DNA of 64,000 bases from assembly GCA_014879565.1 (NCBI GenBank), contig JACSRW010000029.1, forward strand, positions 1-64,000, read 5' to 3'. The stretch comes from Chitinophagaceae bacterium (lineage in GTDB: Bacteria > Bacteroidota > Bacteroidia > Chitinophagales > Chitinophagaceae). This document shows, one piece after another, positions 13,662-49,753 of the stretch; positions within the stretch are counted from its first letter, which is position 1; each line of letters starts with the position of its first letter. Below the pieces are notes generated by a model, which saw only the letters and a program-made list of their open reading frames with translations, ran no database searches and had not been told where the DNA came from. The translations under genes were made by a program, and so were the position numbers.

Positions 13662-15611
13662 ATGAAACGAAAAAACCTTTTCCTGCTGCTCCTGGGAGTC
13701 AGCAGCCTGTTCCCGCTTTCCGCGCAGACTCTTTTTACTTATGGTCCCTATAAGGCGGATGCGGCTGAATTTCTGCGGGCCTTCAATAAGAATAATGTCC
13801 TTACCGGTCAGTCCCGGGCAACGGCCATGCGGGAATACCTGGATTTGTATATCCGCTCCAAACTCAAAGTGCGGGAAGCCGTTGACCGGCGTTATGACAC
13901 CCTTCAGCATATCCGGATGGAAGTGGACAACCTGCGGGCCCAGATCGTGGAAAATTTTATGAACGACCCTGCTATCCTGAACCGCCTGCGCGGGGAAGCT
14001 TTTCAGCGGAGTCAGAAACTGATAAAGGCCGCGCATATCTTCATCGCTTTCAAACAGCCCAATGGCGCGATTGATACGGCGGCAGCCCGCCAGCAACTGG
14101 ATGAGGTAAACAGAAAAATCGCTGCCGGTCAGGATTTTTCACAGCTGGCAATCCAATACTCAGACGACCCTGCGGTGCAGATCAATAAAGGCTATCTCGG
14201 GTATGTAACCGTTTTCACACTGCCCTATGATATGGAGAACGCGCTTTATGCTACGGCAGCGGGCAAAGTAGGTGAACCGGTGCGCAGCAAGATCGGATAT
14301 CATCTGTTTAAAAATATGGGGGAGAAAAAGAATCCCGGACGGATGAAAGCCCAGCAAATCCTGCTTGCCTGGCCACCGGATGCAGATGAAAGTATAAAGA
14401 AACAGGTAGCGCAACGGGCGGATTCCCTCTACAAACGGCTGCTTGCAGGAGAGGATTTCGGGGCGCTGGCCCGCGCTTTCAGCAATGATTATATCAGCGC
14501 GGCTAACAATGGCATAATGCCCGATTTATCCGTGGGTCAGTATGATCCACTTTTTGAAGAGCAATGCTGGGCACTGGCTAAAGACGGGGCTTTGAGCAAA
14601 CCCTTCCGCACTTCGCATGGCTGGCATATCCTGCGCCGGATCAGTATCAAAGCACCGGTAACAGATCCGGAGAACCGGGATTTGCAGCAGGAACTGCAAC
14701 AGAAGATCATGCTCGACAGCCGCTGGCAGGCTTCCAAAGACTATATCTACAACCAGGTAAAACAAAAAGCCGGGGTAACCTATTTGCTGAATGATGAGGC
14801 CGCTTTCCGGGCTTACAGCGACAGCCTGCTCGACCGGCAACCGATGGCTACTGCGGGTAAAAACCTGCAGCCTTCCAGTCCCGTATTCCGGATCGGGGAA
14901 GAAAATTTTGACCTGGCCGCCTGGTATAAATATGCTTCTGTATACCGCTACCGGAATGATGGCAGCGGGTTCAAACCTTTTGAACAGGTGAAGGACGAAT
15001 GGCTGAAATATGAAATGCAGGCGTATTACAAACGAAACCTGGAAGCTTACAATACGGAGTTTCGTAACCAGATGAATGAGTTCCGTGACGGTAATCTCTT
15101 TTTTGAGATCATGCAGCAGGAAGTGTGGACCAAAGCGCAAACGGATACCCTTGCATTACGCAGTCTCTATGAAAAGAATAAAAAGAACTATACCTGGAAG
15201 GAAAGTGCCGATGTGGTGATCTTTTTCTGTTCCGACGCGGCAATGGCACAGACACTCTATGAAAAAGTGAAAGCCGCGCCTGGTGACTGGCGGAAGCTGA
15301 CCGGACAGTATGACGAAAAAGTGCTGGCCGATTCTTCCCGTTATGAATGGAGCCAGATCCCCAACCTGAATAAGACGGTTCCCAAAGCCGGGATGCTGAC
15401 TACCCCGTTGCTGAATGAATCGGATAATACCGCCTCCTTCGCTTATATTTTCAATGCCTATCCACAAACCCTGCAGCGCAGTTTTAACGAAGCCCGCGGA
15501 CTGGTGATCAACGATTACCAGCTCATCCTGGAAAAGCAATGGGAGGAAGCGCTCTTTAAAAAATACCCGGTGAAGGTGGAAGAGAAAGTGCTGGAACAGC
15601 TGATGAAGTAG
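13662..15611 (+). CDS. Exported peptidyl-prolyl isomerase with two parvulin domains
   Basis: This 649-residue periplasmic SurA/PpiC-type folding factor starts with a signal peptide ending in PLSAQ. A first parvulin domain covers about 120-225 (AAHIFIAFKQ, FSQLAIQYSDDP, KGYLGYVTVF). A second covers about 228-330 (AQQILLAWPP, FGALARAFSND, TSHGWHILRRI). A long C-terminal region without a recognised domain follows. It would assist outer-membrane protein folding. Its TAG stop lies against a ten-unit heptamer array. Confidence 0.88.
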   Translation: MKRKNLFLLLLGVSSLFPLSAQTLFTYGPYKADAAEFLRAFNKNNVLTGQSRATAMREYLDLYIRSKLKVREAVDRRYDTLQHIRMEVDNLRAQIVENFMNDPAILNRLRGEAFQRSQKLIKAAHIFIAFKQPNGAIDTAAARQQLDEVNRKIAAGQDFSQLAIQYSDDPAVQINKGYLGYVTVFTLPYDMENALYATAAGKVGEPVRSKIGYHLFKNMGEKKNPGRMKAQQILLAWPPDADESIKKQVAQRADSLYKRLLAGEDFGALARAFSNDYISAANNGIMPDLSVGQYDPLFEEQCWALAKDGALSKPFRTSHGWHILRRISIKAPVTDPENRDLQQELQQKIMLDSRWQASKDYIYNQVKQKAGVTYLLNDEAAFRAYSDSLLDRQPMATAGKNLQPSSPVFRIGEENFDLAAWYKYASVYRYRNDGSGFKPFEQVKDEWLKYEMQAYYKRNLEAYNTEFRNQMNEFRDGNLFFEIMQQEVWTKAQTDTLALRSLYEKNKKNYTWKESADVVIFFCSDAAMAQTLYEKVKAAPGDWRKLTGQYDEKVLADSSRYEWSQIPNLNKTVPKAGMLTTPLLNESDNTASFAYIFNAYPQTLQRSFNEARGLVINDYQLILEKQWEEALFKKYPVKVEEKVLEQLMK

Positions 15612-15680
15612 ACGGGAGTCGGGAGACGGGAGTCGGGAGATGGGAGACGGGAGTCGGGAGTCGGGAGACAGGAGTCGGGA
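15611..15680 (+). repeat. Heptamer tandem array abutting the PPIase stop codon (10 units)
   Basis: Ten contiguous 7-base units of the form G-[A/T]-[C/T]-GGGA fill exactly 70 bases, with one substitution (GACAGGA) outside the pattern. The first G is the last base of the TAG stop. The array then runs into a core (15681-15815) shared with the lptB-add gap. Confidence 0.9.
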
Positions 15681-15840
15681 GATCGTTGAGCGGAAGTTTG
15701 CGTTCCTTATGGGGAAGTTAGCAGTGAGCAGATAGAAGCTAGTAGCCCCGCGTCCCGAAAGGTTTCCCTTTTTCAAGCCAGGGTTAGCCTGAAAGAATGC
15801 CCTACTCACCACTCACCATTCACCACTGACCACTGTCCTC
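15681..15840 (+). repeat. Shared intergenic core plus C-rich arm, PPIase-metF gap
   Basis: Bases 15681 to about 15815 match 17834 to about 17970 at most positions (for example CGGAAGTTTGCGTTCCTTAT, GCAGATAGAAG[C/T]TAGTAG and AAGCCAGGGTTAGCCTGAA). The right end (15803-15840) is built of degenerate ACTCACC units. Read in the metF sense direction, these are GTGAGTGG-type repeats that follow the metF TGA directly. Confidence 0.85.
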
Positions 15841-16791
15841 TCACAGCTTCTTCACCACATCTGCCACCAGCAGAGGGCGCCCCAATGTGTAGTAATGCAG
15901 CACGGGTACACCGGCTTTTTTCAGTTCGCGGGATTGCATGAGCAGCCATTCGGCGCCCACTTTCTCCACTTCCTCGTCGTTTTTGCAACGCAGTACTTCA
16001 TTCGATAACTCCGAAGGGAGGTCAATATGAAAGGTCTTGGGCAAAACGGTGAGTTGTTTTTTGCTGTAGATGGGTTTCAGTCCGGGGATAATCGGGACCG
16101 TAATGCCCATATCCCGGCAGGCTTTTACAAAACTGTGAAAACGGGCATTGTCAAAAAACATCTGGGTGATGATATAATCGGCGCCGAGATCCACTTTCTT
16201 TTTCAGGTACTGCAGGTCGGTTTCCATATTCGGGGCCTCGAAATGTTTTTCCGGATAACCCGCCACACCCACACAGAAATCGGTTTTGTGTGTGCCTTTG
16301 AGTTCATCTTCCAGGTAAATACCGGCATTCAGGTTCACCACCTGTTGCAGCAGGTCACTGGCGTATTTATGTCCCCCGGGTTCGGGTTCAAAACCGGCTT
16401 CGTTTTTGGCCGCGTCTCCGCGCAGCACCAGTACATTGTCAATACCCAGGTAACGCAGGTTGATCAGGGCGTCTTCTGTTTCATTGATATTAAAGCCCCC
16501 GCAGATCAGGTGGGGTACGGTATCCACATTGTATTTATTCATGATGGCGGCGCAGATGCTCTCCGTGCCCGGTCTTTTGCGGACAATCACTTTTTCAAAA
16601 CTGCCATCCGTTCTTTTTTTGAACACGTGTTCACTGCGGTGATAGGTCACGTTGATAAAGGAGGGCTTGAATTCCATCAGGGGGTCCAGGTGTTTGTACA
16701 AGGCTTCAATGCCTTTCCCTTTGAGGGGAGGCAATACTTCAAAGGAAATCAGGGTGTCTTTGGCCTGGCGGATATGGTCGGTTACTTTCAT
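15841..16791 (-). CDS. metF: Methylenetetrahydrofolate reductase
   Basis: A flavin-dependent enzyme that reduces 5,10-methylene-THF to 5-methyl-THF for methionine synthesis. The TIM-barrel enzyme shows FEVLPPLKGKG near the N-terminus with the catalytic Glu, INVTYHRS, LRGDA (FAD contact), and DYIITQMFFDN with PIIPGLKPI. I use the ATG at 16791 (316 residues). The first in-frame ATG (16812) sits inside an exact promoter element. It diverges from lptB; no SAM riboswitch is recognisable in the short leader. Confidence 0.93.
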   Translation of the reverse strand: MKVTDHIRQAKDTLISFEVLPPLKGKGIEALYKHLDPLMEFKPSFINVTYHRSEHVFKKRTDGSFEKVIVRKRPGTESICAAIMNKYNVDTVPHLICGGFNINETEDALINLRYLGIDNVLVLRGDAAKNEAGFEPEPGGHKYASDLLQQVVNLNAGIYLEDELKGTHKTDFCVGVAGYPEKHFEAPNMETDLQYLKKKVDLGADYIITQMFFDNARFHSFVKACRDMGITVPIIPGLKPIYSKKQLTVLPKTFHIDLPSELSNEVLRCKNDEEVEKVGAEWLLMQSRELKKAGVPVLHYYTLGRPLLVADVVKKL

Positions 16792-16950: not shown

Positions 16951-16967
16951 CGCCACAAACATCTTCC

Positions 16968-17765
16968 GTGGCATACAGCATCCGCACAGAACAACTGGTA
17001 AAGAAATACGGTAAACGAACCGTGGTAAACCATGTTTCCTTTGATGTGAAACAGGGAGAAATCGTGGGACTGCTGGGGCCCAACGGCGCGGGCAAAACCA
17101 CCTCCTTTTACCAGGTGGTAGGGTTGGTAAAGCCCGATGAGGGCAGGGTATTCCTGAACGACCAGGATATCACATCCCTGCCTATGTATAAAAGGGCCCA
17201 GATGGGAATCGGGTACCTGCCCCAGGAGGCGTCTGTATTCCGTAAACTCAGCGTGGAAGACAATATCGCGGCCGTTCTGGAAATGACAAAACTCAGCCGC
17301 CAGGAACAAAAGCAGAAACTGGAGTCTTTGCTGAACGAGTTCCGCCTGCAGCATGTCCGCAAAAGCAACGGGGATGTACTCAGCGGGGGCGAAAGAAGAA
17401 GAACCGAAATTGCCAGAGCCCTGGCCGTGGATCCCAAATTTATCCTGCTCGATGAGCCTTTTGCCGGTATTGACCCCATCGCGGTGGAAGATATACAGGC
17501 CATTGTGGCCAAACTCAAGTATAAGGATATCGGTATCCTGATCACCGATCATAATGTGACCGAAACACTTTCTATCTGCGACCGGGCTTATCTCCTGATC
17601 GAAGGGAAAATCTTCCGGCATGGCAGCGCTGAAGAACTGGCCGTGGACGAGCAGGTCCGTAAACTTTACCTGGGCCGGAATTTTGAACTCAAACGGAAGG
17701 ACTGGCTGCATGAGGAGGCGATGAAGGCGAGTGCGGAGACAGGAGAGGGGAGTATGGAGTCTTGA
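16968..17765 (+). CDS. lptB: LPS export ABC transporter ATP-binding protein LptB
   Basis: The cytosolic ATPase that drives lipopolysaccharide extraction by LptFGC. The start is GTG. The ABC domain shows Walker [11 protein letters not shown]-loop [12 protein letters not shown], signature LSGGERRR, Walker [13 protein letters not shown] and switch His in ITDHN. At 265 residues it is longer than the usual 240 or so. The last nine residues (about ETGEGSMES) and the TGA stop are encoded by the first heptamers of a 15-unit array, so the C-terminal tail is partly a product of the repeat. Confidence 0.93.
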
Positions 17766-17840
17766 GTCGGGAGACAGGAGTCGGGAGTTGGGAGACGGGA
17801 GATGGGAGACGCGAGATGGGAGACGGGAGTCGGGAGATCG
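17736..17840 (+). repeat. 15-unit heptamer array overlapping the lptB 3' end
   Basis: Fifteen contiguous 7-base units of the form GAG[A/T]NNN fill exactly 105 bases, with GAGACGG, GAGTCGG and GAGATGG most common. Four units lie in the lptB coding end, and the TGA stop spans the fourth and fifth units. It is the longest array in the window. Confidence 0.93.
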
Positions 17841-22305: not shown

Positions 22306-22388
22306 TCGGGAGACAGGATTCGGGAGTTAGGAGTAAATACAGTCAAAAGAATGAATGCCTGTTGGGCTCAACCCCTCAACCCTCCAAA
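22305..22388 (+). repeat. Repeat-bearing gap between convergent fabG and DNA glycosylase
   Basis: Four heptamers (GTCGGGA, GACAGGA, TTCGGGA, GTTAGGA; 22305-22332) start on the last base of the fabG stop. A short unrelated centre follows. A C-rich octamer arm (CTCAACCC, CTCAACCC) ends 3 bases before the glycosylase stop and reads GGGTTGAG in the glycosylase sense. Confidence 0.85.
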
Positions 22389-23779: not shown

Positions 23780-23934
23780 AAAAGAAGATTGTACCATAAA
23801 GTTAATCCGAACCGTTCCTGTATCCGCAGATTTTTTTCAGCGGCTTTCCTGTAATTTAACCGCGAAAAAAACTGAAAACCCTGACCGGGGTCAGGAGTAT
23901 TGGTATCAGAATTATGTAGATTCATTATCTGTTT

Positions 23935-24795: not shown

Positions 24796-24881
24796 AGGAC
24801 AGTTAGCAGTTAGTAGTCCGTTCCTTTCTGAATGACTTTCTTTACGCCAAACCCCTCAACCCCTCAACCCCTCAACCCTTC
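24796..24881 (+). repeat. Octamer array supplying the paaZ stop codon
   Basis: Four AACCCCTC-type octamers occupy 24850-24881. In the paaZ sense direction they read GGGGTTGA, and the TGA of one unit is the paaZ stop (24872-24874). On the left side GCAGTTAGTAGTCC (24800-24815) resembles the core motif of the other repeat gaps. Confidence 0.88.
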
Positions 24882-26944
24882 CTCGCTACCATGGTCAGTA
24901 TCGTTGCCACCCCGGTGATTTCGCCGGTACCATCGAGGAATTCCACCAGCCATTTTACAATGCCCTTGTCAATATCATCACCCCGTTTAAAATCTTCGGG
25001 CTTTTCGACGACGCGTTTGTCCACCGGCAGTTTTTCCTTGCAGGTAAAACGGATCTGCAGTTCAGCGCCGGGATAAACCGGTTTGGTGAAACGCAGTTCG
25101 TCAATGCCATAATTCAGCAAAACCGGGTTCTTTGTATAACTGTCCACAAACAATCCCGCAGCCAGGCTCATGATCAGGTACCCGTGGGCCACCTGTTGTT
25201 CAAACATGGTACCGCTGAAATCGGTGGTTTTGATATGTGCGTAAAAATGATCTCCGGTCAGGGCTGCGAACCGGTCAATATCATCGGCGGTGATGATTCG
25301 TTTTTCGGTCAGCAGCTGTTCCCCTATCTGCAATTCTTCAAAATATTTTTTAAACGGATGCACGCCGGTATTAATCCCCTTTGCATGGGGCTGGTAAACT
25401 CCGGTCACGGCTGTCAAAAGGGTGGGAGAGCCCTGGATGGCTGTGCGCTGCATATAGTGTTTTACCCCGCGTAATCCCCCCATTTCCTCGCCGCCTCCGG
25501 CACGGCCGGGTCCGCCATGCACCAGCAGGGGCAGGGGAGAACCATGACCGGTACTTTCTTTGGCACATTCCTGGTTCAGGATAAGTATACGGCCATGATG
25601 GGAAGCCGCACCGGCCACATAAGCCCTGGCTTCTTTCGGATCGGCCGTAACGATGGTACTCACCAGGCTGCCCTTTCCTTTTTTGCTCAGACAGATGGCA
25701 TCTTCCAGGTCCCGGTAGGGCATCAGGGTACTTACGGGTCCGAAAGCTTCAATGGTATGCGGCTCTTCCGAAGTATGCGGATTTTCATTACGCAGCAGGA
25801 GTGGTGACATAAAGGCCCCTTTTTCTGCGTCTGCCCCGGTAACCGTAACGGTATCGGGGGATCCGTAGACCAGTTCACAGGATACCAGGAGCTTTTCCAG
25901 TTGTTCCTTTACTTCCCGGCGCTGGGTAAGCCCGGCCAGGCTGCCCATCCGTACTTCGGGATGCAGGGGATCCCCGATGACCGTTTGTGCCAGGGCCTTT
26001 GTCAGCGATTGCTGAACGGCATCGAGTTGTTGTTCCGGTACAAAAATCCGGCGCACACCTGTACAGCGCTGACCGGCTTTCAGGGTCATTTCTCTTCTGA
26101 TTTCTTTGATGAAAATGTCCCACTCCGGATCACCGGGATTTACCTGTTCACCCAGTACGATACAGTTCAGGCTGTCGGCTTCCATAGTAAAGGGTACATT
26201 GTTCTCCAGTATCGCCGGGGTCTTTTTCAGTTTCAACCCGGTTGCCGCACTGCCCGTAAAGGTGATTACGTCCTGTGATTCCGCATGGTCAAGGATATCC
26301 CCGGCTGAGCCGCAAATCAGTTGCAGGGCGCCTTCCGGTAAAATGCCGGAGTTGATGATTTCTTTTACCACCGCTTCCGTGAGATAGGAAGTGACGGTGG
26401 CCGGCTTGACGATTGCAGGCATACCCGCCAGCAGGTTTACCGCGATTTTTTCCAGCATACCCCAAACGGGGAAGTTGAATGCGTTAATATGAATCGCCAC
26501 CCCTTCTTTGGGTACCAGTATATGCGTGCCCATAAAACTGTTTTCCCGGCTGAGGTTATGCGATTCGCCGTCCACACACAACACATCATCGGGCAGTTTC
26601 CGGCGCAGGGAGGCATTGGCAAAAAGATTCCCGATCCCGCCTTCTATATCCACCCAGCTGTCGGCCCGGGTGGCGCCGGTCTGGTAACTGAGGGCATAAA
26701 ATTTATCCAGGTGTTTGCGCAGGTGCAGGGCCAGGGCTTTCAGCCTATTGCCCCGCTGGTGAAAAGTCATTTTCCGGAGGGCCGGATTACCGGTGCGCCG
26801 GGCATAATCCAGGATGGCCTTGAAATCAAGTCCGCCGGTTCCGGCTATCGCAACCGGTTCACCCGTAACGGCATTAAAAAGCAATTGCCCTTCCCCTTCG
26901 CCGGGTATCCAGCGGCCGGTAACATAATTTTGCAGTCTGTTCAT
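24872..26944 (-). CDS. paaZ: Phenylacetate degradation bifunctional protein PaaZ
   Basis: A fusion of an aldehyde dehydrogenase and a MaoC-type hydratase. It hydrolyses oxepin-CoA and oxidises the resulting semialdehyde in aerobic phenylacetate breakdown. The dehydrogenase part (about 1-520) shows INAFNFPVWGMLEK, ITFTGSAATG, the catalytic Glu in TMEADSLN and the nucleophile in KAGQRCTGVRR. The MaoC part (about 540-690) shows DDIDRFAALTGDHFYAH. The 690-residue length fits E. coli PaaZ. No other paa genes are visible in the window. The C-terminal Lys-Gly and stop fall in an octamer repeat. Confidence 0.92.
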   Translation of the reverse strand: MNRLQNYVTGRWIPGEGEGQLLFNAVTGEPVAIAGTGGLDFKAILDYARRTGNPALRKMTFHQRGNRLKALALHLRKHLDKFYALSYQTGATRADSWVDIEGGIGNLFANASLRRKLPDDVLCVDGESHNLSRENSFMGTHILVPKEGVAIHINAFNFPVWGMLEKIAVNLLAGMPAIVKPATVTSYLTEAVVKEIINSGILPEGALQLICGSAGDILDHAESQDVITFTGSAATGLKLKKTPAILENNVPFTMEADSLNCIVLGEQVNPGDPEWDIFIKEIRREMTLKAGQRCTGVRRIFVPEQQLDAVQQSLTKALAQTVIGDPLHPEVRMGSLAGLTQRREVKEQLEKLLVSCELVYGSPDTVTVTGADAEKGAFMSPLLLRNENPHTSEEPHTIEAFGPVSTLMPYRDLEDAICLSKKGKGSLVSTIVTADPKEARAYVAGAASHHGRILILNQECAKESTGHGSPLPLLVHGGPGRAGGGEEMGGLRGVKHYMQRTAIQGSPTLLTAVTGVYQPHAKGINTGVHPFKKYFEELQIGEQLLTEKRIITADDIDRFAALTGDHFYAHIKTTDFSGTMFEQQVAHGYLIMSLAAGLFVDSYTKNPVLLNYGIDELRFTKPVYPGAELQIRFTCKEKLPVDKRVVEKPEDFKRGDDIDKGIVKWLVEFLDGTGEITGVATILTMVARKG

Positions 26945-29804: not shown

Positions 29805-31307
29805 ATGAGCGAACTGAAAGTTTATAATTCCCTGAGCCGCCAGAAAGAAGTCTTTACCTCCCTGACCCCCGGACATGTGGGCATGTATGTCTGCGGACCA
29901 ACCGTCAGCGGAGAAAGCCATCTCGGCCACGCGCGCCCTTACATCACTTTTGATGTGATTTTCCGTTACCTGCAATACCTCGGGTATAAAGTTCGGTATG
30001 TCCGCAATATCACCGATGCGGGCCATTTTGAGGAAGAAGGCCGGGAAGCGGTGGATAAGATCGCGACCAAGGCAGTGCTCGAAAAACTGGAGCCGATGGA
30101 ACTGGTGCAGAAATATACCAATCTTTTTCACTGGGCCATGGCGCAGTTCAATACCCTGCCGCCTTCCATTGAGCCAACAGCAACGGGGCATATTGTGGAA
30201 CAGATTGAAATGATCAAAAAAATCCTGGAAGCCGGCTATGCCTATGAATCAAATGGCTCTGTGTATTTTGATGTAAAAAAATACGCCGCCGGTCACGATT
30301 ACGGCAAACTCAGCGGCCGGGTGATAGAAGACCTGCTTGAAACGACGCGTGAACTGGAAGGGCAGCAGGAAAAAAGGGATACCGCCGATTTTGCGCTCTG
30401 GAAAAATGCGGCACCGGAACATATCATGCGCTGGCAAAGTCCCTGGGGAGTAGGCTACCCCGGCTGGCATATTGAGTGCTCGGCCATGGCCACCAAGTAC
30501 CTGGGTGCGCAGTTCGATATTCACGGAGGGGGGATGGACCTGCTTTTCCCGCATCATGAAAGTGAGATCGCGCAGAGCACCATTTGCAACCATTCCGCGC
30601 CGGTACGCTACTGGATTCACAACAATATGATCACGATAAACGGCCGCAAGATGGGCAAGAGTTATAACAACGTGATCAAACTGACCGAGCTTTTCAGCGG
30701 GGATCATCCGATCCTGGAGAAAGCTTATCACCCCATGACCGTGCGCTTTTTCATTTTGCAGACACATTACCGCAGTACGCTTGATTTCAGCAATGAGGCG
30801 CTTCAGGCTTCTGAAAAAGGGTTACGCAGGTTATGGGATGCCTATGAAAATTTGCAGAAACTCAGTCGGGAGGGAGCTCCGGAAGCCGGGGATGCGGAAC
30901 TGGACAAAAAAATAAATGACCTGCTGGATGAGTTCAGTACGTTTATGAACGATGATTTCAGCACCGCCAAAGTGCTGGCCAATATGTTTGAAATGGTGCC
31001 CGTGATCAATTCTATGAAGGACAAACTGATCCCGGTAACGGCCCTTTCAGCCGCTTCCATAGAAAAGCTGAAAGCCGGTTTTCATACCTGGCTGGAAGAT
31101 ATCTTCGGACTGCGTTCCGTTTCGGAGGCGGATAACAGCAAACTCCAGGGGGTGATGCAGCTCCTGGTTGACATCCGCAAGGAAGCGAAAAGCCGCAAGG
31201 ATTTTGTCACCTCCGATAAGATCCGCAACCAATTGGCCCTGCTGGGTATTACCCTGAAGGATGAGAAGGGAGGGGAGATGAGCTGGAGCCTGGCGGGCGG
31301 GGAGTAG
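29805..31307 (+). CDS. cysS: Cysteine-tRNA ligase
   Basis: Charges tRNA-Cys. The class I HIGH-type motif is GESHLGHARP and the KMSKS-type motif reads KMGKS. Zinc-site residues include YVCGPTV and WHIECSAMA, with HHESEIAQS. The ATG at 29805 gives a 500-residue product beginning MSELKVYNSL; the longer frame from 29760 adds an unconserved stretch. The last codons (GGE) and TAG lead directly into a TGAGTGG heptamer array, so the C-terminal end is shaped by the repeat. Confidence 0.94.
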   Translation: MSELKVYNSLSRQKEVFTSLTPGHVGMYVCGPTVSGESHLGHARPYITFDVIFRYLQYLGYKVRYVRNITDAGHFEEEGREAVDKIATKAVLEKLEPMELVQKYTNLFHWAMAQFNTLPPSIEPTATGHIVEQIEMIKKILEAGYAYESNGSVYFDVKKYAAGHDYGKLSGRVIEDLLETTRELEGQQEKRDTADFALWKNAAPEHIMRWQSPWGVGYPGWHIECSAMATKYLGAQFDIHGGGMDLLFPHHESEIAQSTICNHSAPVRYWIHNNMITINGRKMGKSYNNVIKLTELFSGDHPILEKAYHPMTVRFFILQTHYRSTLDFSNEALQASEKGLRRLWDAYENLQKLSREGAPEAGDAELDKKINDLLDEFSTFMNDDFSTAKVLANMFEMVPVINSMKDKLIPVTALSAASIEKLKAGFHTWLEDIFGLRSVSEADNSKLQGVMQLLVDIRKEAKSRKDFVTSDKIRNQLALLGITLKDEKGGEMSWSLAGGE

Positions 31308-31335
31308 TGAGTGGTGAGTGGTCAGTAGTGAGTGG
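31301..31335 (+). repeat. Five-unit TGAGTGG-type heptamer array at the cysS stop
   Basis: Units GGAGTAG, TGAGTGG, TGAGTGG, TCAGTAG and TGAGTGG are contiguous. The cysS TAG stop is the last triplet of the first unit. A short GGGCTTAAAC remnant of the shared core follows. Confidence 0.88.
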
Positions 31336-36890: not shown

Positions 36891-36975
36891 AAATTTCTTT
36901 ATCGCATATAAGTAAAATTTATTCAGGGGAAGAGTAAAATTTTAAAAATTGAGTGATTGGCATTTAACGGTCTTC

Positions 36976-37018
36976 TCAACCCCTCAACCTCTCAACATCT
37001 CAGCCCCTCAACCGTTTA
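36976..37018 (-). repeat. Five-unit octamer array abutting the RHS gene stop
   Basis: Five contiguous octamers (TCAACCCC, TCAACCTC, TCAACATC, TCAGCCCC, TCAACCGT; 36976-37015) end exactly at the TAA stop of the RHS-type gene. In that gene's sense they read GGGGTTGA-type. Confidence 0.9.
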
Positions 37019-38662
37019 AAGTCTCTCCCAGATCCACTCATGCGCCACTTTTTTAGGCTCCAGTACATCAGCGTTTTCCCGGTAAAGGGATAAGAGCGCT
37101 TGTGAAGCGGGATCGGCAGCGGTCTTTTCCCCGTCGCTTTGAGACAGTATCATTTTTCCCAGCCGGGCATGGGAAACGGCATACGGTTTTCCGTTTTTAT
37201 AGTCAATCAGCAGGGTCAGGCTGTCACGGCTAATCCGCAATACACCGTTTTCCCGTTCACCGCTGAGTGTATATATCTTTCCGTTGCGGTTACACTGTAC
37301 CAGTTCCCCTTTTTCACTGTACTGATAGGTATAGCGGATAGTATCCCGGCGGAGGGAATCCACCTGGGTAAAACTTTCGGGCAGATCCTGTACGTTGTAT
37401 TCCGAAATATAAAGGCTGTCGTTAATCCGTAATGTATGGCAGCGCCCTTTACCGTCGTAAGTGGCCCAGGCTTCTTTATTGTTTTTCTTCCGGTAAGAGG
37501 CATTCCCCACATCCGGTGGGTAAAGAGATTCTTCATAACTCGTATCGGTTTGTGCCAGCCGCCGGTAAAGATAGTCGGAGCCGTCTGCCCTGGTCCGGCT
37601 TTCGTATTCATAGTATTCAGCGAATACAGCCGCGCCGGTGCTGTCGTATTTTCGGATACGGGTGGCATAGTGCAGCAGGTTCACTTTCCCTTCCGGGGTA
37701 TAGAAAAAGGGATAGTGGTAGGTGGTGAAGGCCCCGTTGCGTTCCTTCACTTTCAGGGTGCGGTTGGTAACCGGATCATAACTGATTTCCATACTGCCGG
37801 AATCCGTATACCCGATCCGGATCAGATTATGTGCTTTGTCATAACGGTAGTTATATTCATTGGCTTCAGTGTCTTTGGAATACACAAGGTTATTATCGGT
37901 GTCATAGCGGTACTGACTTTCCTTCCATCCGCTGCTGTCGCTGTACCGGAGACGAAGTATGCGGCCGAGACTGTCTGTATAAACGGAACACTGGTATTGA
38001 TTGCCGGCAAGGATAAGAGAAAGCCGCTGTTGCTGGTAACGAAGGCGAAACCAGTATTTCTCCTCGCGGATTTCCGTCATTAATCCGCCGGCATTAAAGT
38101 GATACCGGTCTGCCCAGTTATCCAGTACAAAATGCTGACCGTTCCAGCGGATGGCCTGGTTTACATTTCTTTTCCAATTCCGGGGGAGCATACCGGGAAA
38201 CCAGCGAGCTGCTTTTTTTTCCCTGATCAAACGGATATAGGCATTGAGACGGGTATAGTCATCAGTGGCCAGTTCCGCCCGCCGCCGGGCTATAGCCGAA
38301 GGATTGTTATCCAGTTTCTCACGGGTGATATCATCTGCAATAATTTTTTCAATCATCCGGTACATACCGTTCCGGTCTTTTACCGCCGGTTCAAAAATAT
38401 CAAGACTGCCGCCGCCCCACCAGCTGATTGCCAGTTGTCCGTCTGGAAAAGCAAAAAGCTGTGTTTCCAGGATAGAACTCCAGCCAAAGCCGAAATAACC
38501 GGTACTGCTGGTAAAGGAATTATAGGTTCGGGTAATATCGGCTCCTGTTCCCGGGAATGCAATATCGGTATAGGACATGTAAAAATTGCCCGTACGGATA
38601 TTCACCCCGCTGAAACCGGCCGCCGGCCAGTAAAAAAATACTATCAGCAATAATTTTTTCAT
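37016..38662 (-). CDS. RHS/YD-repeat protein, short exported form
   Basis: This 548-residue protein has a signal peptide, then a DUF6531-like N-terminal part (TDIAFPGTGADITRTYNS, YFGFGWSSI). Central YD-type repeats follow (YDTDNNLVYSKD, YRYDKAHNLIRIGY, ISYDPVTNRTLKVKERNG). The C-terminus continues repeat-like strands and ends HEWIWERL, without an obvious toxin domain. Full RHS shells are 1,000 residues or more, so this is a truncated or minimal form. It overlaps the stop of the caspase-TPR gene by 4 bases (ATGA), making a two-gene operon. Confidence 0.8.
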   Translation of the reverse strand: MKKLLLIVFFYWPAAGFSGVNIRTGNFYMSYTDIAFPGTGADITRTYNSFTSSTGYFGFGWSSILETQLFAFPDGQLAISWWGGGSLDIFEPAVKDRNGMYRMIEKIIADDITREKLDNNPSAIARRRAELATDDYTRLNAYIRLIREKKAARWFPGMLPRNWKRNVNQAIRWNGQHFVLDNWADRYHFNAGGLMTEIREEKYWFRLRYQQQRLSLILAGNQYQCSVYTDSLGRILRLRYSDSSGWKESQYRYDTDNNLVYSKDTEANEYNYRYDKAHNLIRIGYTDSGSMEISYDPVTNRTLKVKERNGAFTTYHYPFFYTPEGKVNLLHYATRIRKYDSTGAAVFAEYYEYESRTRADGSDYLYRRLAQTDTSYEESLYPPDVGNASYRKKNNKEAWATYDGKGRCHTLRINDSLYISEYNVQDLPESFTQVDSLRRDTIRYTYQYSEKGELVQCNRNGKIYTLSGERENGVLRISRDSLTLLIDYKNGKPYAVSHARLGKMILSQSDGEKTAADPASQALLSLYRENADVLEPKKVAHEWIWERL

Positions 38663-41661: not shown

Positions 41662-41691
41662 AGGGAATAGGATTATAAATATAAGGATAAT

Positions 41692-41726
41692 AGGCAATAG
41701 GCAGCGGGCAATAGGCAATAGGCATC
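41692..41726 (-). repeat. Five-unit GGCAATA heptamer array upstream of the caspase-TPR gene
   Basis: Units AGGCAAT, AGGCAGC, GGGCAAT, AGGCAAT and AGGCATC are contiguous. In the transcription direction of the neighbouring minus-strand genes they are pyrimidine-rich (ATTGCCT). They create a false N-terminal extension of the caspase gene. Confidence 0.85.
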
Positions 41727-42247: not shown

Positions 42248-42385
42248 GTTGATTTTTAGATTGGAGAGTAGTGAGTGGTGAGTGGGGCCTTCTTTCAGGC
42301 TGAATGGAGGGTTTAAATTTTTGGAATCACCCGGGGCACAGACTACTAACTTCTGTCTTTTATCTTCCAACTCCCGTCTCCCTCA
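42248..42385 (-). repeat. Repeat gap between SGNH hydrolase and GNAT genes
   Basis: In the minus-strand direction, TGA of the SGNH gene is followed at once by GGGAGACGGGAGTTGG heptamers. A core follows with ACAGAAGTTAGTAG and GCCTGAAAGAAGGCCCCACT. Last is a TGAGTGG-type array (three units on the plus strand, 42265-42285). The core is shared with 43335-43425 and, more weakly, with the PPIase and lptB gaps. Confidence 0.88.
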
Positions 42386-43135: not shown

Positions 43136-43314
43136 GGGATGGTTTGCTTTTGAAACACCAGGCCTGAATGAACAGGCTCAGGATAATCATTGCGTAAATC
43201 TATTAAAAGAAAACAGCCTGCTAACAGGAGAAATTATTTTTTTGATTGATTTGGGTAAAAAAAATTTCATTTTATAGCAGATATGCCATAATTGAGGAGG
43301 GGGGCGGAGATTGG

Positions 43315-43433
43315 TGAGTAGTGAGTAGTGATTAGTGAGTGGTGAGTGGGGCCTTCTTTCTGGCTGAATGGAGGGTTTAAGCTTCTGGAATCAACCAGGG
43401 CACAGACTACTAACTTCTGTCTGCTTTCTGCTA
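43315..43433 (-). repeat. Repeat gap after the hemerythrin gene
   Basis: Five contiguous plus-strand units (TGAGTAG twice, TGATTAG, TGAGTGG twice; 43315-43349) are followed by a core closely matching 42286-42360 (GGCTGAATGGAGGGTTTAA, GGGCACAGACTACTAACTTC). In the gene's sense the TAG stop of the hemerythrin gene is itself part of an AGTTAGCAG repeat unit. Confidence 0.88.
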
Positions 43434-43925: not shown

Positions 43926-43941
43926 GGGAGGGGGGAGATTA

Positions 43942-44010
43942 GCAGATGGGCAGATTTGCAGATGGGCAGATGTGCAGATGGGTATGACTGCCGACTCCCG
44001 TCTCCCGACT
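43942..44010 (-). repeat. Octamer and heptamer arrays downstream of the epimerase gene
   Basis: Five plus-strand octamers GCAGAT[G/T][G/T] fill 43942-43981. Next to them, 43988-44010 holds GGGAGTC-type heptamers that are sense-oriented for the epimerase gene. The pattern again is a G-rich arm near the stop and a C-rich arm near the next gene (in the minus-strand direction). Confidence 0.88.
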
Positions 44011-44027
44011 TCGTCCTCACTTGCTGC

Positions 44028-45159: not shown

Positions 45160-45825
45160 TTAGAAAAGAATACGCAGCCCGAAGCAGAGTAAACCGCCGA
45201 AGGGTGCGTTTTTATTTTTATAAAGGTAGGGACTGGGATAATCACTTGAAGGAATAAAGACCCGGGCTTCGGTGAAGATATAAAAATCGGGTCCGGCCGG
45301 TATTTCCCCGCCCAGGGACAGATCAAAGCTCAGCCGCTTGAACTTTCCCTCTCCGGCCAGCACAGGTAATTGATAAAGGCTGCTGTCGGTCAAACGGTCA
45401 TGGCTATTCGTAATCCGCCCCAGCAGCAGACCAAACCCGGCCGTACTATAAAGATTCCCTCCTTCTTCCCGATCGGGCCGGCCCAGCAGGTAACGCTTCC
45501 AGGCTACAGAAAGCCTTCGCATTTTCAGGCTGGCTTTATTGGTATAATTTATTTGTTGCGGTTGCGTGCTGCCGGTTTTGGCAAGGGCCGTTACTGCATT
45601 ACTGAATTTTCCGGCGCTTCCGTGGCTGAAGGAAACCCGGATCCCGTCTCTTTGCACCAGGTGAAAGTCCAGATGCAGGGTATGCTGAATGGAATTAAAA
45701 TGCTGCCCATCCGCGAAATTCCGGTAAAGGCCCATATCACTTCCAAATGAAAAAAGCGGAGACTGGGCCTGTGCCCGTAGCGAGGCGGTGAGTAAAAGAA
45801 GGAATAAGAAAAATGGCCGGGGCAT
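45160..45825 (-). CDS. Exported barrel-like hypothetical protein
   Basis: I do not recognise the family. From the ATG at 45825 the product is 221 residues with a signal peptide ending near LRAQAQ. The mature part is a series of amphipathic strands (HTLHLDFHLVQRDG, FKRLSFDLSLGGE, FYIFTEARVFIPSS) ending in an aromatic-tailed LLCFGLRILF, the pattern of an outer-membrane beta-barrel. It sits directly upstream of the dipeptide epimerase and is likely co-transcribed, so a role in peptidoglycan-peptide uptake is conceivable but unproven. Confidence 0.65.
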   Translation of the reverse strand: MPRPFFLFLLLLTASLRAQAQSPLFSFGSDMGLYRNFADGQHFNSIQHTLHLDFHLVQRDGIRVSFSHGSAGKFSNAVTALAKTGSTQPQQINYTNKASLKMRRLSVAWKRYLLGRPDREEGGNLYSTAGFGLLLGRITNSHDRLTDSSLYQLPVLAGEGKFKRLSFDLSLGGEIPAGPDFYIFTEARVFIPSSDYPSPYLYKNKNAPFGGLLCFGLRILF

Positions 45826-45854
45826 GGGGCAAGTTAGGTAAAAATGGAACAGAA

Positions 45855-46030
45855 AGTGGTGAGTAGTGAGTGGGTAGTAGGGATGCAATTTCAGGCATAT
45901 GAAAAAGCCCGGCGATGACCGGGCTTTTTTTGTGGAAGTGTATGGTTAGGGTTGAGGCGATGTCACAAAGAAGAAGAATTTCTCTCGCATGCCCCATTTA
46001 CCACTTGCCACTCCCCACTATTCTACTTAT
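45855..46030 (-). repeat. Degenerate repeat arms around a terminator, S46 peptidase downstream gap
   Basis: On the plus strand, GTGGTGAGTAGTGAGTGGGTAG (given here in parts: TGAGTAG, TGAGTGG, GTAGTAG at 45860-45880) lies left of the terminator. CCCATTTACCACTTGCCACT-type C-rich units (45991-46020) lie right of it, next to the peptidase stop. The two arms are roughly complementary. Confidence 0.7.
45902..45931 (-). terminator. Rho-independent terminator after the S46 peptidase gene
   Basis: An 11-bp stem (AAAAAGCCCGG with CCGGGCTTTTT) closes the loop CGATGA. It is T-tailed in both directions, so it can also act on the other strand. It lies about 100 bases past the S46 stop and before the exported-protein gene. 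Confidence 0.9.
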
Positions 46031-48195
46031 CACTTCATAATCTTCAGCTCCTTAATAATATTCTCCCCGCCGCCCAGTTTGTCAATACACCAGAGTACAT
46101 AGCGGATATCCACACAGATGGTGCGGTTGAGATCTTTGTCAAAAGCGAGTTTGTGGCTGAGAGCCTCATAGTTACCGTCGAAGGCAAGACCGATCAGTTC
46201 GCCGCGGCCATTGATAACCGGGGAGCCTGAGTTGCCACCGGTGATATCATTGGTGGTAATAAACCCGATCACCAGGTCCTTGCGGGCGGGATCCATATAC
46301 TGTCCGAAATCTTTTTTCTTCAGCAGCTCAATCTGTCTGGCAGGCAGGTCAAATTCATAATCGCCTGCTTTGTATTTTTCCAGCAAGCCTTTGGAGGTGG
46401 TTACATAATCATAAAACACCGCGTCGCGGGGACGGTAAGATTTCACGGCCCCGTAGCTGACCCGCATGGTAAAAGTGGCATCAGGATACATCATCTTTGC
46501 TTTGACAGGATCCATTTCCATCACGCCTTTCAGATAGAGTCGGCCAAACTCCGCGTTTTTGGACATGAACTGCTGGGAAAGGGGTCCGTATTTGGAGTTA
46601 TAATTGGTCAGGAACGCACTGGCGTGCGCAAAAGCCGGATCGGCCTGCAGAACGGTGGCGTCCGGGTTAGCCGTAAAGGCATTCCATTTGGCATCATCAA
46701 AAATCATGGACTTGCCAAATACATCTGCCGCATATTTTTTATACGTGGCGTCATCATTCAGCGGACCATAACTGTTCTTCAGGGTGTTGAAGAAACCAAC
46801 GGGATGCTGTTCCTTGTCCACATCCTCGTAGAACATGCGGGTAACGGCAGCCAGTATATTTTGATCAGATACTTTGTTTTCTTCTTTCAGGAAACCTTCC
46901 CGGGATGCTTTCGCGGCTTCCACCGCTTTGCTGATATCGGCTTTGGAGGAACCGGGTTTTACCAGGGCGGCTTCCAGCTGCAGCAGGGAAGAGGCATAGG
47001 CAATCAGCGGAGAGCCGAATACTCCTTCATTGATATACACACGATGTTTGGCATAAGGCTTCCAGGCGTCATAAGCCCGGTTCCAGTCGGCAAACAGGTT
47101 TTCGTATTCGGGTTTACCCTTGGCCCATGCATTGAATTTCGCTTCGGCTTTTTCTTTCTGGCCAAATACATCATACTTCAGCAGTTGTTTGGTTTCGCCG
47201 TCAAAGAATTTCCAGTAATTGGCAATACCGGCATAAGAGGAGGCCAGCTGCAGTTTAACAGCCGGGTCTTTTTTCATTTCCTCAAACATGTACCGGAGGC
47301 GGATATCGCGCAGTTTTACCAGGGTGGGGTTGTTGATATCGGTGGCCAGTTTGATGCCGTAAGAACTTTCATACCGGTTGGTGCCGCCGGGATAACCCCA
47401 GATCATGGAGAAATCTCCGTCTTTCAGCGGACGCAGGGAAACAGGCAGGTACCATTTGGGTTTCATCGGTACATTGCTCTCTGCGAATTTGGCGGGTTTG
47501 CCATCGGCAGAGGTGTATACACGGAACACAGAGAAATCACCGGTATGGCGGGGCCATTCCCAGTTGTCGGTATCGCCGCCGAATTTACCCACACTTTCGG
47601 GAGGAGTACCTACGAGACGTACATCCGTATAGCGCTGGTATACAAAGGCCAGGAACTGGTTGCCTTTGAAGAGCGGGCTCACCCGGGTTTCGATATTCGC
47701 AGCAGCATCACTGAGGCGTTTGTTGATGGCAGCCAGTACAGCGCCCTGTTTCTGCACACGCTCCGCCCCGGATAAACCCTTCAGTGAATCCATCACTTCT
47801 TTAGTGACATCGTCAATCCGCAGCAGGAACTGAACGGAAAGACTGGTGGGAATTTCTTCTGATTTGTTACGGGCATAAAAGCCATCCCGCAGGTAGTTCT
47901 TTTCCATACTGGAAGCGGAAGCAATCGCATTGTATCCGCAGTGGTGATTGGTAAAGATCAGTCCCTGGGAGCTTACAATCTCCCCGGTACAGCCCCCGCC
48001 GAAGATGATGATGGCATCCTTGAGGGAGGGTTTGTTGATATTATAGAGCTGTTCTTTGGTCAGTTTAAGCCCTTTTTTCACCATATCATTATAAACCTGC
48101 TGTCCCAGCAACAGGGGCAGCCACATCCCCTCATCGGCCATGGATTTCAGCACGAGGGAGACAGACAGTACAATCGTCAGGAAAATCTTCTTCAT
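46030..48195 (-). CDS. S46-family dipeptidyl-peptidase (DPP7/DPP11 type)
   Basis: A periplasmic or surface serine exopeptidase that frees dipeptides, common in Bacteroidota that feed on protein. The signal peptide ends near LKSMA; the mature N-terminus is DEGMWLP. The catalytic His is in FTNHHCGYNAI, Asp in FGGDTDNWEWPRHTGDF and Ser in TGGNSGSPVI. Start 48195 gives 721 residues, the family norm; the 28-residue extension to 48279 runs past an exact promoter element. Whether it prefers hydrophobic (DPP7) or acidic (DPP11) P1 residues cannot be settled by eye. Confidence 0.93.
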   Translation of the reverse strand: MKKIFLTIVLSVSLVLKSMADEGMWLPLLLGQQVYNDMVKKGLKLTKEQLYNINKPSLKDAIIIFGGGCTGEIVSSQGLIFTNHHCGYNAIASASSMEKNYLRDGFYARNKSEEIPTSLSVQFLLRIDDVTKEVMDSLKGLSGAERVQKQGAVLAAINKRLSDAAANIETRVSPLFKGNQFLAFVYQRYTDVRLVGTPPESVGKFGGDTDNWEWPRHTGDFSVFRVYTSADGKPAKFAESNVPMKPKWYLPVSLRPLKDGDFSMIWGYPGGTNRYESSYGIKLATDINNPTLVKLRDIRLRYMFEEMKKDPAVKLQLASSYAGIANYWKFFDGETKQLLKYDVFGQKEKAEAKFNAWAKGKPEYENLFADWNRAYDAWKPYAKHRVYINEGVFGSPLIAYASSLLQLEAALVKPGSSKADISKAVEAAKASREGFLKEENKVSDQNILAAVTRMFYEDVDKEQHPVGFFNTLKNSYGPLNDDATYKKYAADVFGKSMIFDDAKWNAFTANPDATVLQADPAFAHASAFLTNYNSKYGPLSQQFMSKNAEFGRLYLKGVMEMDPVKAKMMYPDATFTMRVSYGAVKSYRPRDAVFYDYVTTSKGLLEKYKAGDYEFDLPARQIELLKKKDFGQYMDPARKDLVIGFITTNDITGGNSGSPVINGRGELIGLAFDGNYEALSHKLAFDKDLNRTICVDIRYVLWCIDKLGGGENIIKELKIMK

Positions 48196-48213
48196 ACATG
48201 TGATTTTAGGCCG

Positions 48214-48221: not shown

Positions 48222-48288
48222 CTGAAAAACCAGTACCGGATACCTGAGTTTGGTCGGGATGGCTTATTTTAGTGACCAATTCCTGCTT

Positions 48289-49632
48289 ATGCGAACGCTG
48301 CCATTAATCCCGGCCCTTCTGGCCCTTCTTTTTCTTTCTCCTTCCTGCGGAAAAAAGTCGAATACACCCAATCCCCCTCCCGGCAATGCGCCCGGCTGTG
48401 CCACAGCGGTCAGTCCGGCTTCAGGTGGATTTGTCACCAGCACCAGTGTAAACTTGAGCTGGAACGCGGCGGCTAATGCCAGCAGTTATGATCTTTATCT
48501 CGGTGCCGGCGCTGTGGCGGCTTCCCTGGTAGCCAGTAATATCAGCGGCACCAGTCATACCATTACCATACCGGGTACCGCTAATGCCAGCTATTCCTGG
48601 TATGTGGTGCCCAAAAACAGTTCAGGTACGGCCAGCGGCTGCAGCGGCGGGGCCAGCCAGTTTATCTATATCGTCATTAATCCGCCAGCGCCTTTCGGCT
48701 ATTATGTGGTGGGTTACCTGCCTTCTTACCGGAGCCTGACGGATATACCGGATGTAAAATTCCGGATGACCAATGTGGTGATCTATGCCTTTTATGGAGT
48801 CAATGGCAGCGGGGGACTGAGTGCACCTGCTTCCGGCACCAGCCTGGCTTCCGTTATTACAAAAGCCCGGGCCAATAATGCCAAAATTTTTGTGGGGATT
48901 AATGATGGCAGCGGAGACGGCAAAACGAATTTCAAAAGCATGGCATCCACTGCCGCAGGCCGGAACAATTTTGTGAAGCAGGTTATGAACCTGGTGCGGA
49001 CCAATAATCTTGACGGTGTGGATATGGACTGGGAATTCCCGACTACCTCAGATGGCACTGATGCTACTTTCACTGCCCTGATGAAAGAACTGGCTGATTC
49101 CCTGCACCGGGACGCGAAATATTATTTATCCTGTGCGGTTACGGCCGGGAAATATGCCGGCGGTATCCGCGATGCCATCCGCAATGAACTGTTTGGCTAT
49201 GTTGACTTCTTTAATATCATGGCCTATGATGATTTCAGCACCTCTACGCCTTATCGCCATCACAGTGATTATGCCCTGGCGCAAACCTGCCTGAACTACT
49301 GGCTGACCACCAGGGGTATGCCGGCAAATAAGGCGGTACTCGGATTGCCTGCCTACGGACGTCCCTCCGGTATCACCCAGAGCGGTACAGTGCTGACGTA
49401 TAAAACAATCCTGTCACAGGGGGGCAGCTCACAACTGGATTCAGCCACAGTGACCGCCGGGGGCTTTACCAATTACACCATTTATTACAACGGACAGTAT
49501 ACAATCAAGCGGAAGGCTAAACTGGCCAAAGATATCGCTGCAGGTGTGATGCTCTGGGAAAAGGGACAGGATGCGTCCGATGACCATTCTTTATTAAAAG
49601 CGGCCTGTGATACGGTAGGAAGGGCGTATTGA
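48289..49632 (+). CDS. GH18 chitinase-like lipoprotein with fibronectin-like domain
   Basis: A signal peptide leads to the Cys of FLSPSCGKK, suggesting surface anchoring. Residues of about 35-125 form a fibronectin type III-like domain (VNLSWNAAANASSYDLYLG). A glycoside hydrolase 18 barrel follows with YYVVGYLPSYR, the catalytic LDGVDMDWEFP (DxxDxDxE) and a closing GVMLWEKGQD. It should cut chitin or related N-acetylglucosamine glycans with the Glu as acid. ATG at 48289 gives 447 residues. The TGA stop overlaps a GAGACGG heptamer. Confidence 0.92.
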   Translation: MRTLPLIPALLALLFLSPSCGKKSNTPNPPPGNAPGCATAVSPASGGFVTSTSVNLSWNAAANASSYDLYLGAGAVAASLVASNISGTSHTITIPGTANASYSWYVVPKNSSGTASGCSGGASQFIYIVINPPAPFGYYVVGYLPSYRSLTDIPDVKFRMTNVVIYAFYGVNGSGGLSAPASGTSLASVITKARANNAKIFVGINDGSGDGKTNFKSMASTAAGRNNFVKQVMNLVRTNNLDGVDMDWEFPTTSDGTDATFTALMKELADSLHRDAKYYLSCAVTAGKYAGGIRDAIRNELFGYVDFFNIMAYDDFSTSTPYRHHSDYALAQTCLNYWLTTRGMPANKAVLGLPAYGRPSGITQSGTVLTYKTILSQGGSSQLDSATVTAGGFTNYTIYYNGQYTIKRKAKLAKDIAAGVMLWEKGQDASDDHSLLKAACDTVGRAY

Positions 49633-49753
49633 GACGGGAGACCGAGTAAATAGACAGAAGTTAGTAGATAGTAGTGGGTGCTTAGAATACGGGTGATTGC
49701 CTGTATGATTTTTTCATCCGGTCAACCTATCAGCATTTCAACCTTTCAGCCTT
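49631..49753 (+). repeat. Repeat gap between convergent chitinase and birA genes
   Basis: Two heptamers (GAGACGG, GAGACCG) begin on the chitinase stop. ACAGAAGTTAGTAG from the shared core follows. Four octamers (TCAACCTA, TCAGCATT, TCAACCTT, TCAGCCTT; 49722-49753) extend 8 bases into birA, and in the birA sense one unit supplies the TGA stop. Confidence 0.88.

Follow-up and report, generated by a model that had tools for sequence, protein, structure and literature searches.

What produces the short tandem arrays in the gene gaps of one Chitinophagaceae genome, and does the stop codon, where many of them begin, explain them? The arrays lie in a 64,000-nucleotide stretch of this genome (GenBank assembly GCA_014879565.1, contig JACSRW010000029.1), which we refer to as the window. 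The reading that we favour is a tentative one, falling somewhat short of an even chance: the arrays would be fast-turning ladders laid down by strand-polar mutation at the DNA level, and not a regulatory device tied to stops. Their geometry was previously known for one heptamer family of the G-quadruplex (G4) type, for which it was discussed as possible gene regulation. That one geometry governs many unrelated units, units free of G-tracts, pairs of unlike units and ladders inside enzymes argues for a directional DNA process, and not a G4 or stop-codon function, as the common cause. If confirmed, such a process would supply bacteria generally with new 3' untranslated sequence and new protein linkers.

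Period, gene edges and strand polarity

The genome of the window is labelled G000 and other G numbers denote the relatives compared with it; gene calls are those of our own open reading frame caller and are uncurated. Our strict detector required at least 17 of 21 matches at a fixed period. When applied to a 398-kb contig sample of the same genome that does not include the window (C1), it showed that the intergenic arrays are dominated by periods 7 (17 arrays), 14 (13) and 8 (10), with two each at the minor periods 6, 12 and 15. Periods 5, 9, 10 and 13 were absent from C1, the window and G027, as was period 11 from C1, and one shuffle of C1 gave no period-7 or period-8 array and a single match overall, at period 11. 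Within the window, the best period-7/8 stretch of 13 gaps was compared with 200 composition shuffles each; 12 gaps exceeded them (0 or 1 of 200 as good), and the divergent gap 23780-23985 did not (112/200 as good). A first-pass annotation of the window had named gaps with short arrays of these periods, and Tandem Repeats Finder, the sequence itself and the shuffle test all bear this out.

To measure stop anchoring, we scored arrays whose G-rich strand starts between -35 and +30 bases from a sense stop, with a null that placed each array at a random place and strand of the same gap (2,000 draws). Among the 27 period-7/8 arrays of C1, 25 were intergenic in this test and 17 of these carried the G-rich strand at the sense stop (null mean 5.75, maximum 12). 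A 100-kb sample of G027 gave 9/15, against a null mean of 3.6 and a null maximum of 9. The window gave 6/9 (null mean 1.9, maximum 7), which alone is not decisive. The annotators' claim that the sense strand is G-rich at stop edges therefore stands in independent sequence, where array start against stop position and array strand against gene strand gave a positive result. Across the window and C1, Tandem Repeats Finder placed arrays in 14/53 convergent, 20/224 tandem and 2/58 divergent gaps.

The same annotation had the units begin at the stop, which does not hold for four G-rich arrays of the window. Those at 41689-41724, 42258-42285, 43306-43351 and 43942-43982 are found either next to the start codon in tandem gaps or in the middle of a gap, and the sense strand of the gene is C-rich there. 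Anchoring at stops thus belongs to a more general rule: whichever edge of a gene an array adjoins, its G-rich strand points from that edge into the gap. Measured from the nearest edge of any kind in five genomes, arrays at most 30 bases away ran inward in 50/53 cases (36 at stops, 14 at starts; 3 outward), and those farther away in 14/22 (genus samples). The stop codon is not the whole cause of the arrays, since ladders also stand before starts and inside genes and their pairs are head-to-head. Units as stop-codon traps in all frames were rejected, as GGGAGTC reads without a stop triplet.

The pair rule was assessed in 1.71 Mb of the genus, for arrays at most 150 bases apart and at three detector settings. 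Neighbours on opposite strands were head-to-head in 17/17 pairs at the strict setting, in 25/25 at a looser one (160 arrays; 6 in the shuffle) and in 30/31 at the loosest (227 arrays; 30 in the shuffle); L283 and L287, two of the 25, are orthologues of one another. Since a hairpin function would accept either arm order, the rarity of tail-to-tail pairs speaks for a directional process. Arms of one pair share words (median score 18, compared with 6 between pairs), with only 7 of the 25 pairs above the 90th percentile of cross scores. In many pairs the arms are separated by a spacer, which in some of them contains a terminator. Unit decay gave no clear polarity of growth: in the 28 arrays of at least five units, the first two units were less consensus-like than the last two in 15, more so in 5 and equal in 8.

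Several unit families obey this layout, among them GGGAGTC/GGGAGAC, GTGAGTR, GTTAGTA, GTTGAGRG and GCAGATGG. G-tracts can be read in GGGAGTC and none in AAGTACG, GTTAGTA, AAGTAAA or GTTGAAAA. An exact 26-base GGGAGWC pattern occurs in at least 120 stretches of GTDB genomes, and the 80 matches listed include Acidobacteria, Cyanobacteria (Moorena, Calothrix and Lyngbya), Gemmatimonadetes, Planctomycetota, Akkermansiaceae, Sorangium, Chloroflexales, relatives of Xanthomonas and Bacteroidota. Loci of other phyla picked by this pattern were chosen for one array and not for pair order, several coming from the same genomes (Moorena, Lyngbya). By crude gene calls, 60 of 92 segments were intergenic, and these ran inward in 30/34 cases at most 30 bases from an edge and in 14/26 farther away. 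Their pairs (79 loci) comprised 45 head-to-head, 3 tail-to-tail and 39 same-strand, so that 45 of 48 opposite pairs were head-to-head.

Ladders in translated sequence

In-frame ladders with a G-rich sense strand were identified in an A2M-type gene (G000), at the 3' end of lptB and in a PaaE-type linker (both G027) and in DprA (G021); two further in-gene ladders of G021 are antisense. In the G027 lptB (C12:222001-322000, L085-L089 joined, local 22689-23975), the gene call crosses an in-frame GGGAGTC ladder into a C-terminal stretch of about 145 residues, and such a ladder may act as a fusion linker. The PaaE-type oxidoreductase of G027 (L089:6533-7645, minus strand) has a ladder-coded linker of the QESGVG type between its NAD-binding and 2Fe-2S domains.

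The MnmH protein (TIGR03167), matched in 22 of 60 genomes of the order, offers a natural experiment, in which the same two loops carry ladders in about half of the congeners, with different words. A period-7 signal (P < 0.05 by shuffling, 60 tests in all) was found in 16/30 congeners at one site and 13/30 at the other; one of the 16, G011, has a short loop whose P of 0.025 may be chance. In 15 genomes selected because they bear ladders, the period-7 match averaged 0.463 over 30 loops, compared with 0.263 (maximum 0.38) over 258 other segments of the same genes; the loop signal was specific to period 7 and missing from those segments. The ladders are in frame in the alignment, with one stop codon in each of the matches from G020 (L309), G026 (L312) and G059 (L324). 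Their words vary by species, for example AGTCNNN in G009, GATTNNN in G015 and, at site 2, GTGAATR in G021 and GATGTGA in G027. Outside the family (19 genomes) the loops are short, at 39-60 and 45-51 bases, with a period-7 match of at most 0.44; those of G100, of the same family, reach 0.53 and 0.40. G012 has two MnmH copies (C121, C313), 99% and 96% identical to that of G004, which may reflect a mixed bin or a duplication.

Head-to-head inserts can also be read in MnmH. Stems exceeding those of shuffles were present in 10 of the 29 signal-bearing loops and in 2 of the 31 others, and in those 10 the first arm had G over C in nine loops and a tie in one (manual tally). Perfect hairpins are not the rule, as such stems were found in 6/30 loops at each site.

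These observations bear on the idea of R-loop expansion, in which untranslated G-rich RNA behind the last ribosome pairs with its template and the exposed strand grows between stop and terminator. Such a process would account for the stop anchoring, the G-rich sense strand, the scarcity of arrays in divergent gaps and the position ahead of the terminator, but it leaves unexplained both the ladders with a C-rich sense strand before starts (14 of the 53 edge arrays) and the C-rich arm of pairs within translated MnmH. We consider it quite unlikely.

Turnover and candidate mechanisms

The array-rich genomes G000, G027, G004 and G012 form one clade in a midpoint-rooted S46-peptidase tree (bootstrap 92, SH-like approximate likelihood ratio test 89; G004 and G012 sequences partial). 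Matches to three consecutive GGGAGTC units number 105 in G000 (at most three mismatches, overlaps counted), 277 in G027, 202 in G004 and 108 in G012; 22 of 34 congeners have none of this particular unit, and in a phylum survey at up to two mismatches 4/198 genomes, our own included, carried it. Strict arrays number 27 in 398 kb of C1, 9 in the 64-kb window and 37 in 300 kb of G027, compared with 7 in 200 kb of G021, 1 in 140 kb of G058 and 2 in 160 kb of G060. Of the genomes searched for GTTAGTA and GGTTGAGA, three (G000, G027 and G004) show high counts, while G021, G001, G058, G060 and G024 have few matches or none.

Orthologous gaps frequently differ in their unit or have a terminator in place of a ladder. 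The G027 gaps have other units after the PPIase, fabG and S46 genes and no ladder after cysS, and one of its gaps measures 15 bases where that of the window has 97. Two convergent gaps contain a short hairpin terminator in G058/G060 and ladders in G000 and G027. In the S46 3' gap (compared across congeners without loci L056, L059, L060 and L062), eight of nine ladder-free congeners show stop, short stretch and hairpin by manual reading, with G024 differing, whereas G000, G004 and G027 have three different ladders between stop and hairpin. Between G004 and G012, the spacer-terminator interior of one gap is inverted between its two ladders.

Could the arrays be functional elements of the 3' untranslated region, in which G-rich sense RNA guards mRNA ends or folds into a G4, and the C-rich antisense strand serves as a Rho loading site that halts transcription into the gene? 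The strong stop anchoring, the hairpin terminators of G058/G060 in place of ladders and the published transcription of such repeats in Xanthomonas (PMC4692102) are consistent with this. However, ladders lie within translated MnmH, PaaE-type, DprA and A2M genes, and regulation after stops does not account for those of MnmH. Many units also have no G-tract, the C-rich strands of GTTAGTA or AAGTAAA read without YC steps, and 22 of 34 congeners are free of GGGAGTC matches, other units not being excluded there. A function of this kind is therefore improbable as the origin of the arrays.

Under the mutational reading, a short stretch at a harmless site (mainly from stop to terminator, but also in protein loops) would grow in 7- or 8-base steps. 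A step of this size would be too large for mismatch repair, which may be the reason for the period. Expansion would be polar, with the G-rich strand (G over C) running 5' to 3' away from unique DNA. A head-to-head pair would result either from the same expansion at the opposite edge, on the other strand, or from fold-back copying of the first arm. Template switches from one arm to the other would then keep their words alike and could invert the spacer, and purifying selection would clear ladders that hit genes or promoters, so that the survivors adjoin stops. To the observed period, edge anchoring, polarity and head-to-head pairs, the different units at several orthologous sites, the spacer inversion of one genome pair and the in-frame MnmH ladders, this reading would add that slippage is the engine and that G-strand polarity comes from the nascent strand as it slips. 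Spacer inversion is a described signature of template switching between inverted repeats (PMC8604942), and we count the G004/G012 inversion for template switching because it matches that signature.

Polar slippage with template switching covers most of the facts, and several observations weigh against it. The polarity itself enters as an observation and goes unexplained. Neighbours on the same strand occur too (9/34 in the genus at the looser setting, 39/87 in the other-phylum loci). The same words recur at many unlinked loci, as the 105 matches of our own genome show, and in many phyla; the order TGAGTAA-TCAGTAA-TGAGTAA is found at four loci, two of them orthologous, and the GGGAGTC ladder after lptB is common to G000 and G027. 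This sharing of words between loci and phyla is left over, and local slippage alone is insufficient for it. Not all words travel: GTTAGTA was found in 7/15 and GGTTGAGA in 2/15 genomes reached via the other-phylum loci, and a reversed control of GTTAGTA was frequent in two of these genomes, in Moorena more so than GTTAGTA itself (91 vs 54). In three of four pairs compared, one of the three being ladder-free, divergence is higher in the MnmH loops than in the remainder of the gene; the close pair G004/G012 shows no such excess. Half-loop G-C skew is inward in 15/16 and 10/13 MnmH loops with ladders but also in 8/14 and 12/17 without the signal, and is accordingly not evidence. Finally, 9 of 25 pairs unite unlike families by manual reading, five of them period 7 with period 8, and two with a one-base spacer; fold-back copying would not give such pairs.

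Junctions of a single base between arms of unlike families speak rather for ends that were extended and then joined. In such a break-and-heal scheme, both 3' ends of a break would be extended with G-rich 7- or 8-base repeats by an end-joining polymerase or a reverse transcriptase and then ligated, with the polarity of fused telomeres. It predicts the head-to-head order, the direct junctions of 7 with 8 (2 of 25 pairs) and the head-to-head inserts in MnmH. We nevertheless regard it as unlikely, given the many pairs that retain a spacer, some with a terminator, and the distribution of the enzymes. RVT_1 was not found in G004 (83% complete) or G012 (76% complete), both rich in arrays. It is present in G060 and in three genomes free of GGGAGTC matches, G009, G011 and G033; with 6 positive genomes of 39 it does not follow the arrays, and a reverse transcriptase was rejected as their maker. 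Ku (PF02735) was found in G026 and G060 only of the 39 genomes, and Ku-dependent joining was rejected as none of the four array-rich genomes has it.

A dispersed mobile element with the arrays as its ends, of the miniature inverted-repeat transposable element (MITE) type or the type of repetitive extragenic palindromes (REP) and their associated transposases (RAYT), is very unlikely. Its best evidence is the 89% identity between the non-repeat spacers 15683-15806 and 17838-17960 of neighbouring gaps, the words in common between loci, and the presence of Y1_Tnp in all four array-rich genomes and in 11/13 congeners with a GGGAGTC match, compared with 4/22 without (manual tally). However, the spacer has two good copies and two short matches in the genome, unlike the conserved multi-copy core of a MITE; the core flanked by the ladders at 15.7 and 17.9 kb arose by local duplication and is not a dispersed composite element, and a given site carries different unit families in different species. 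Among genomes of at least 2.5 Mb, Y1_Tnp is also present in 4/7 without matches, so that a RAYT as maker is confounded with genome size. The Y1_Tnp loci bear palindromes other than the ladders, and 7/18 hold no ladder, contrary to a REP/RAYT system in which the palindromic unit belongs to its own Y1 gene. None of the three enzyme families tested (RVT_1, Y1_Tnp, Ku) tracks the arrays. The RAYT-type Y1_Tnp genes at L279, L282, L284, L285, L286, L288 and L293 are flanked by palindromes such as CAACCCCGAAGGGGTTG, which are likely their own REPs.

More broadly, many phyla may share a strand-polar process that extends the G-rich strand out of unique DNA by 7- or 8-base repeats. Acting on either side of a tolerated site, it would bring the ladders together head-to-head, like fused telomeres. 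One such activity, patchy between species, would drive a rapid rewriting of intergenic DNA and protein loops while the layout is kept. We put this forward as a rather unlikely possibility.

Known repeat systems and the arrays of the window

Cyanobacterial short tandemly repeated repetitive (STRR) sequences are degenerate tandem heptanucleotides, intergenic and with several unit families per genome. Our arrays share all of these features, and the GGGAGWC unit itself occurs in the three cyanobacterial genera named above; they differ in their host, a member of Chitinophagales, and in that their geometry relative to genes was measured here. The first-pass comparison with STRRs is a useful pointer: the unit is found in cyanobacteria and in other phyla, and the geometry had been published for GGGNATC in Xanthomonas and Nostoc (Rehm et al, 2015; PMC4692102).

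Rehm et al described mostly intergenic GGGNATC and GGGGA(C/T)T heptamers whose G-rich strand lies 3' of stops on the coding strand and 5' of starts on the non-coding strand. Their convergent opposite-strand pairs number 70 in Xcc and 75 in Xac, with few in Nostoc; intragenic repeats make up 11% and 7% in the two Xanthomonas genomes, and repeat length and sequence vary between close species. Four units is the preferred number in that family; in our arrays the unit number is biased by the detection threshold. Our arrays resemble these in period 7, mostly intergenic location, opposite-strand pairs and an edge-linked G-rich strand (50/53 within 30 bp here; a 50-bp zone there). They differ from what is described there in the unit, in having many unit families in one genome, octamers, G-tract-free units and unlike-family pairs, in the in-frame ladders at the same MnmH loops with words that differ by species, and in their Bacteroidota host. 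The layout is therefore already published for two bacterial groups; here it is broader, with many unit families, octamers and G-tract-free units, and extends into genes.

The statement that no such repeats had been described for Bacteroidota was too strong, as TAACTGA heptamer arrays are reported in five Bacteroidetes as well as in Beggiatoaceae and cyanobacteria (MacGregor, 2015; PMC4679880). These are likewise heptamer direct repeats, patchy over distant phyla, but as described they consist of a single unit, which in the main genome tends to lie immediately 5' of start codons and for which a translational role was proposed. The tandem repeats of Borgs (PMC9879509) are also fast-evolving and lie between and inside genes, in frame; unlike ours, their in-gene units are divisible by three, A-rich and perfect copies, and the portions of that report drawn on here contain no head-to-head rule. 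Arm homogenisation and spacer inversion are shared with template switching at inverted repeats, which in that source concerns short inverted repeats in yeast coding DNA and not ladders (PMC8604942). Our literature search, with subscription journals mostly outside it, found no report of many unit families under one head-to-head rule or of protein loops that keep their ladders while the words change.

The arrays of the window are listed in Table 1. Phase-variable simple sequence repeats lie in a promoter or reading frame and switch a surface gene; the ladders here come after housekeeping genes, among them PPIase, metF, lptB and cysS, or, in MnmH, in frame within the gene. No Rfam match at the gathering threshold was found in window positions 15000-51000.

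Table 1. Period-7 and period-8 ladders of the window, with the strand that carries the G-rich sequence.
Ladder	Position	Strand	Setting	Basis
GGGAGTC/GGGAGAC, period 7	15608..15681	+ (G-rich)	Overlaps stop of PPIase gene 13662-15611 +	Tandem Repeats Finder; Pfam Rotamase
GGTGAGT	15800..15841	- (C-rich on +)	Adjoins metF stop, 15841-16791 -	Pfam MTHFR
GGGAGTC	17735..17838	+	Begins ~30 bases inside lptB 3' end (16968-17765 +), continues beyond stop	TIGR04406
GGGAGAC, weak	22307..22334	+	3' of fabG-like gene 21550-22305 +	14/21 at period 7, 1/200 shuffles equal; Pfam adh_short
GGGTTGAG, two octamers	22367..22382	- (C-rich on +)	Ahead of HhH-GPD gene stop, 22389-23024 -	Tandem Repeats Finder, Pfam
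GGGGTTGA octamer	24845..24887	-	Spans paaZ stop, 24872-26944 -	PaaZ TIGR02278
GTGAGTG	31300..31335	+	Spans cysS stop, 29805-31307 +	Pfam tRNA-synt_1e
GGGTTGAG octamer	36972..37025	-	At stop of DUF6531 gene 37016-38662 - ("RHS" in the first-pass annotation)	Pfam DUF6531
AATAGGC	41689..41724	+	Start side of TPR/caspase-domain gene 38659-41661 -	Tandem Repeats Finder, shuffle test, Pfam
GTGAGTG	42258..42285	+	Start side of GNAT gene 41786-42220 -	Shuffle test, Pfam
GTGAGTA	43306..43351	+	Gap between SGNH gene 42383-43024 - and hemerythrin gene 43431-43901 -	Pfam
GCAGATGG octamer	43932..43982	+	Head-to-head with ladder 43986..44012	
GGGAGTC	43986..44012	- (C-rich on +)	Ahead of MR_MLE-type gene stop, 44028-45149 -	Pfam
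GTGAGTA-type, weak	45854..45881	+ (G-rich)	Gap 3' of S46 peptidase gene 46030-48195 -	15/21 at period 7, 1/200 shuffles equal
AAGGTTGA-type octamer	49722..49753	-	At stop of BPL_LplA_LipB gene 49746-50480 -	Tandem Repeats Finder, shuffle test, Pfam

The GTGAGTA ladder between the SGNH and hemerythrin genes stands 79 bases from a stop edge and runs outward relative to its nearest edge, and the head-to-head pair that follows has a junction of 1-3 bases. The gaps at 42.3 and 43.35 kb have spacer sequence in common, by eye. The weak ladder at 45854 lies about 118 bases from the start edge of gene 45160-45735 (minus strand); a second ladder with a G-rich sense strand can be seen by eye directly 3' of the S46 stop, and a hairpin terminator separates the two. 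Behind the S46 gene of G004 (L251, G004:C26, after position 1413), there are two copies of a CCCCCTAAATCCCCCGAAGGGGGACTTTAGA palindrome in a stretch of some 300 bases, and a similar motif, CCCCCTTTAGGGGGTT, is present in MnmH loop 2 of G001.

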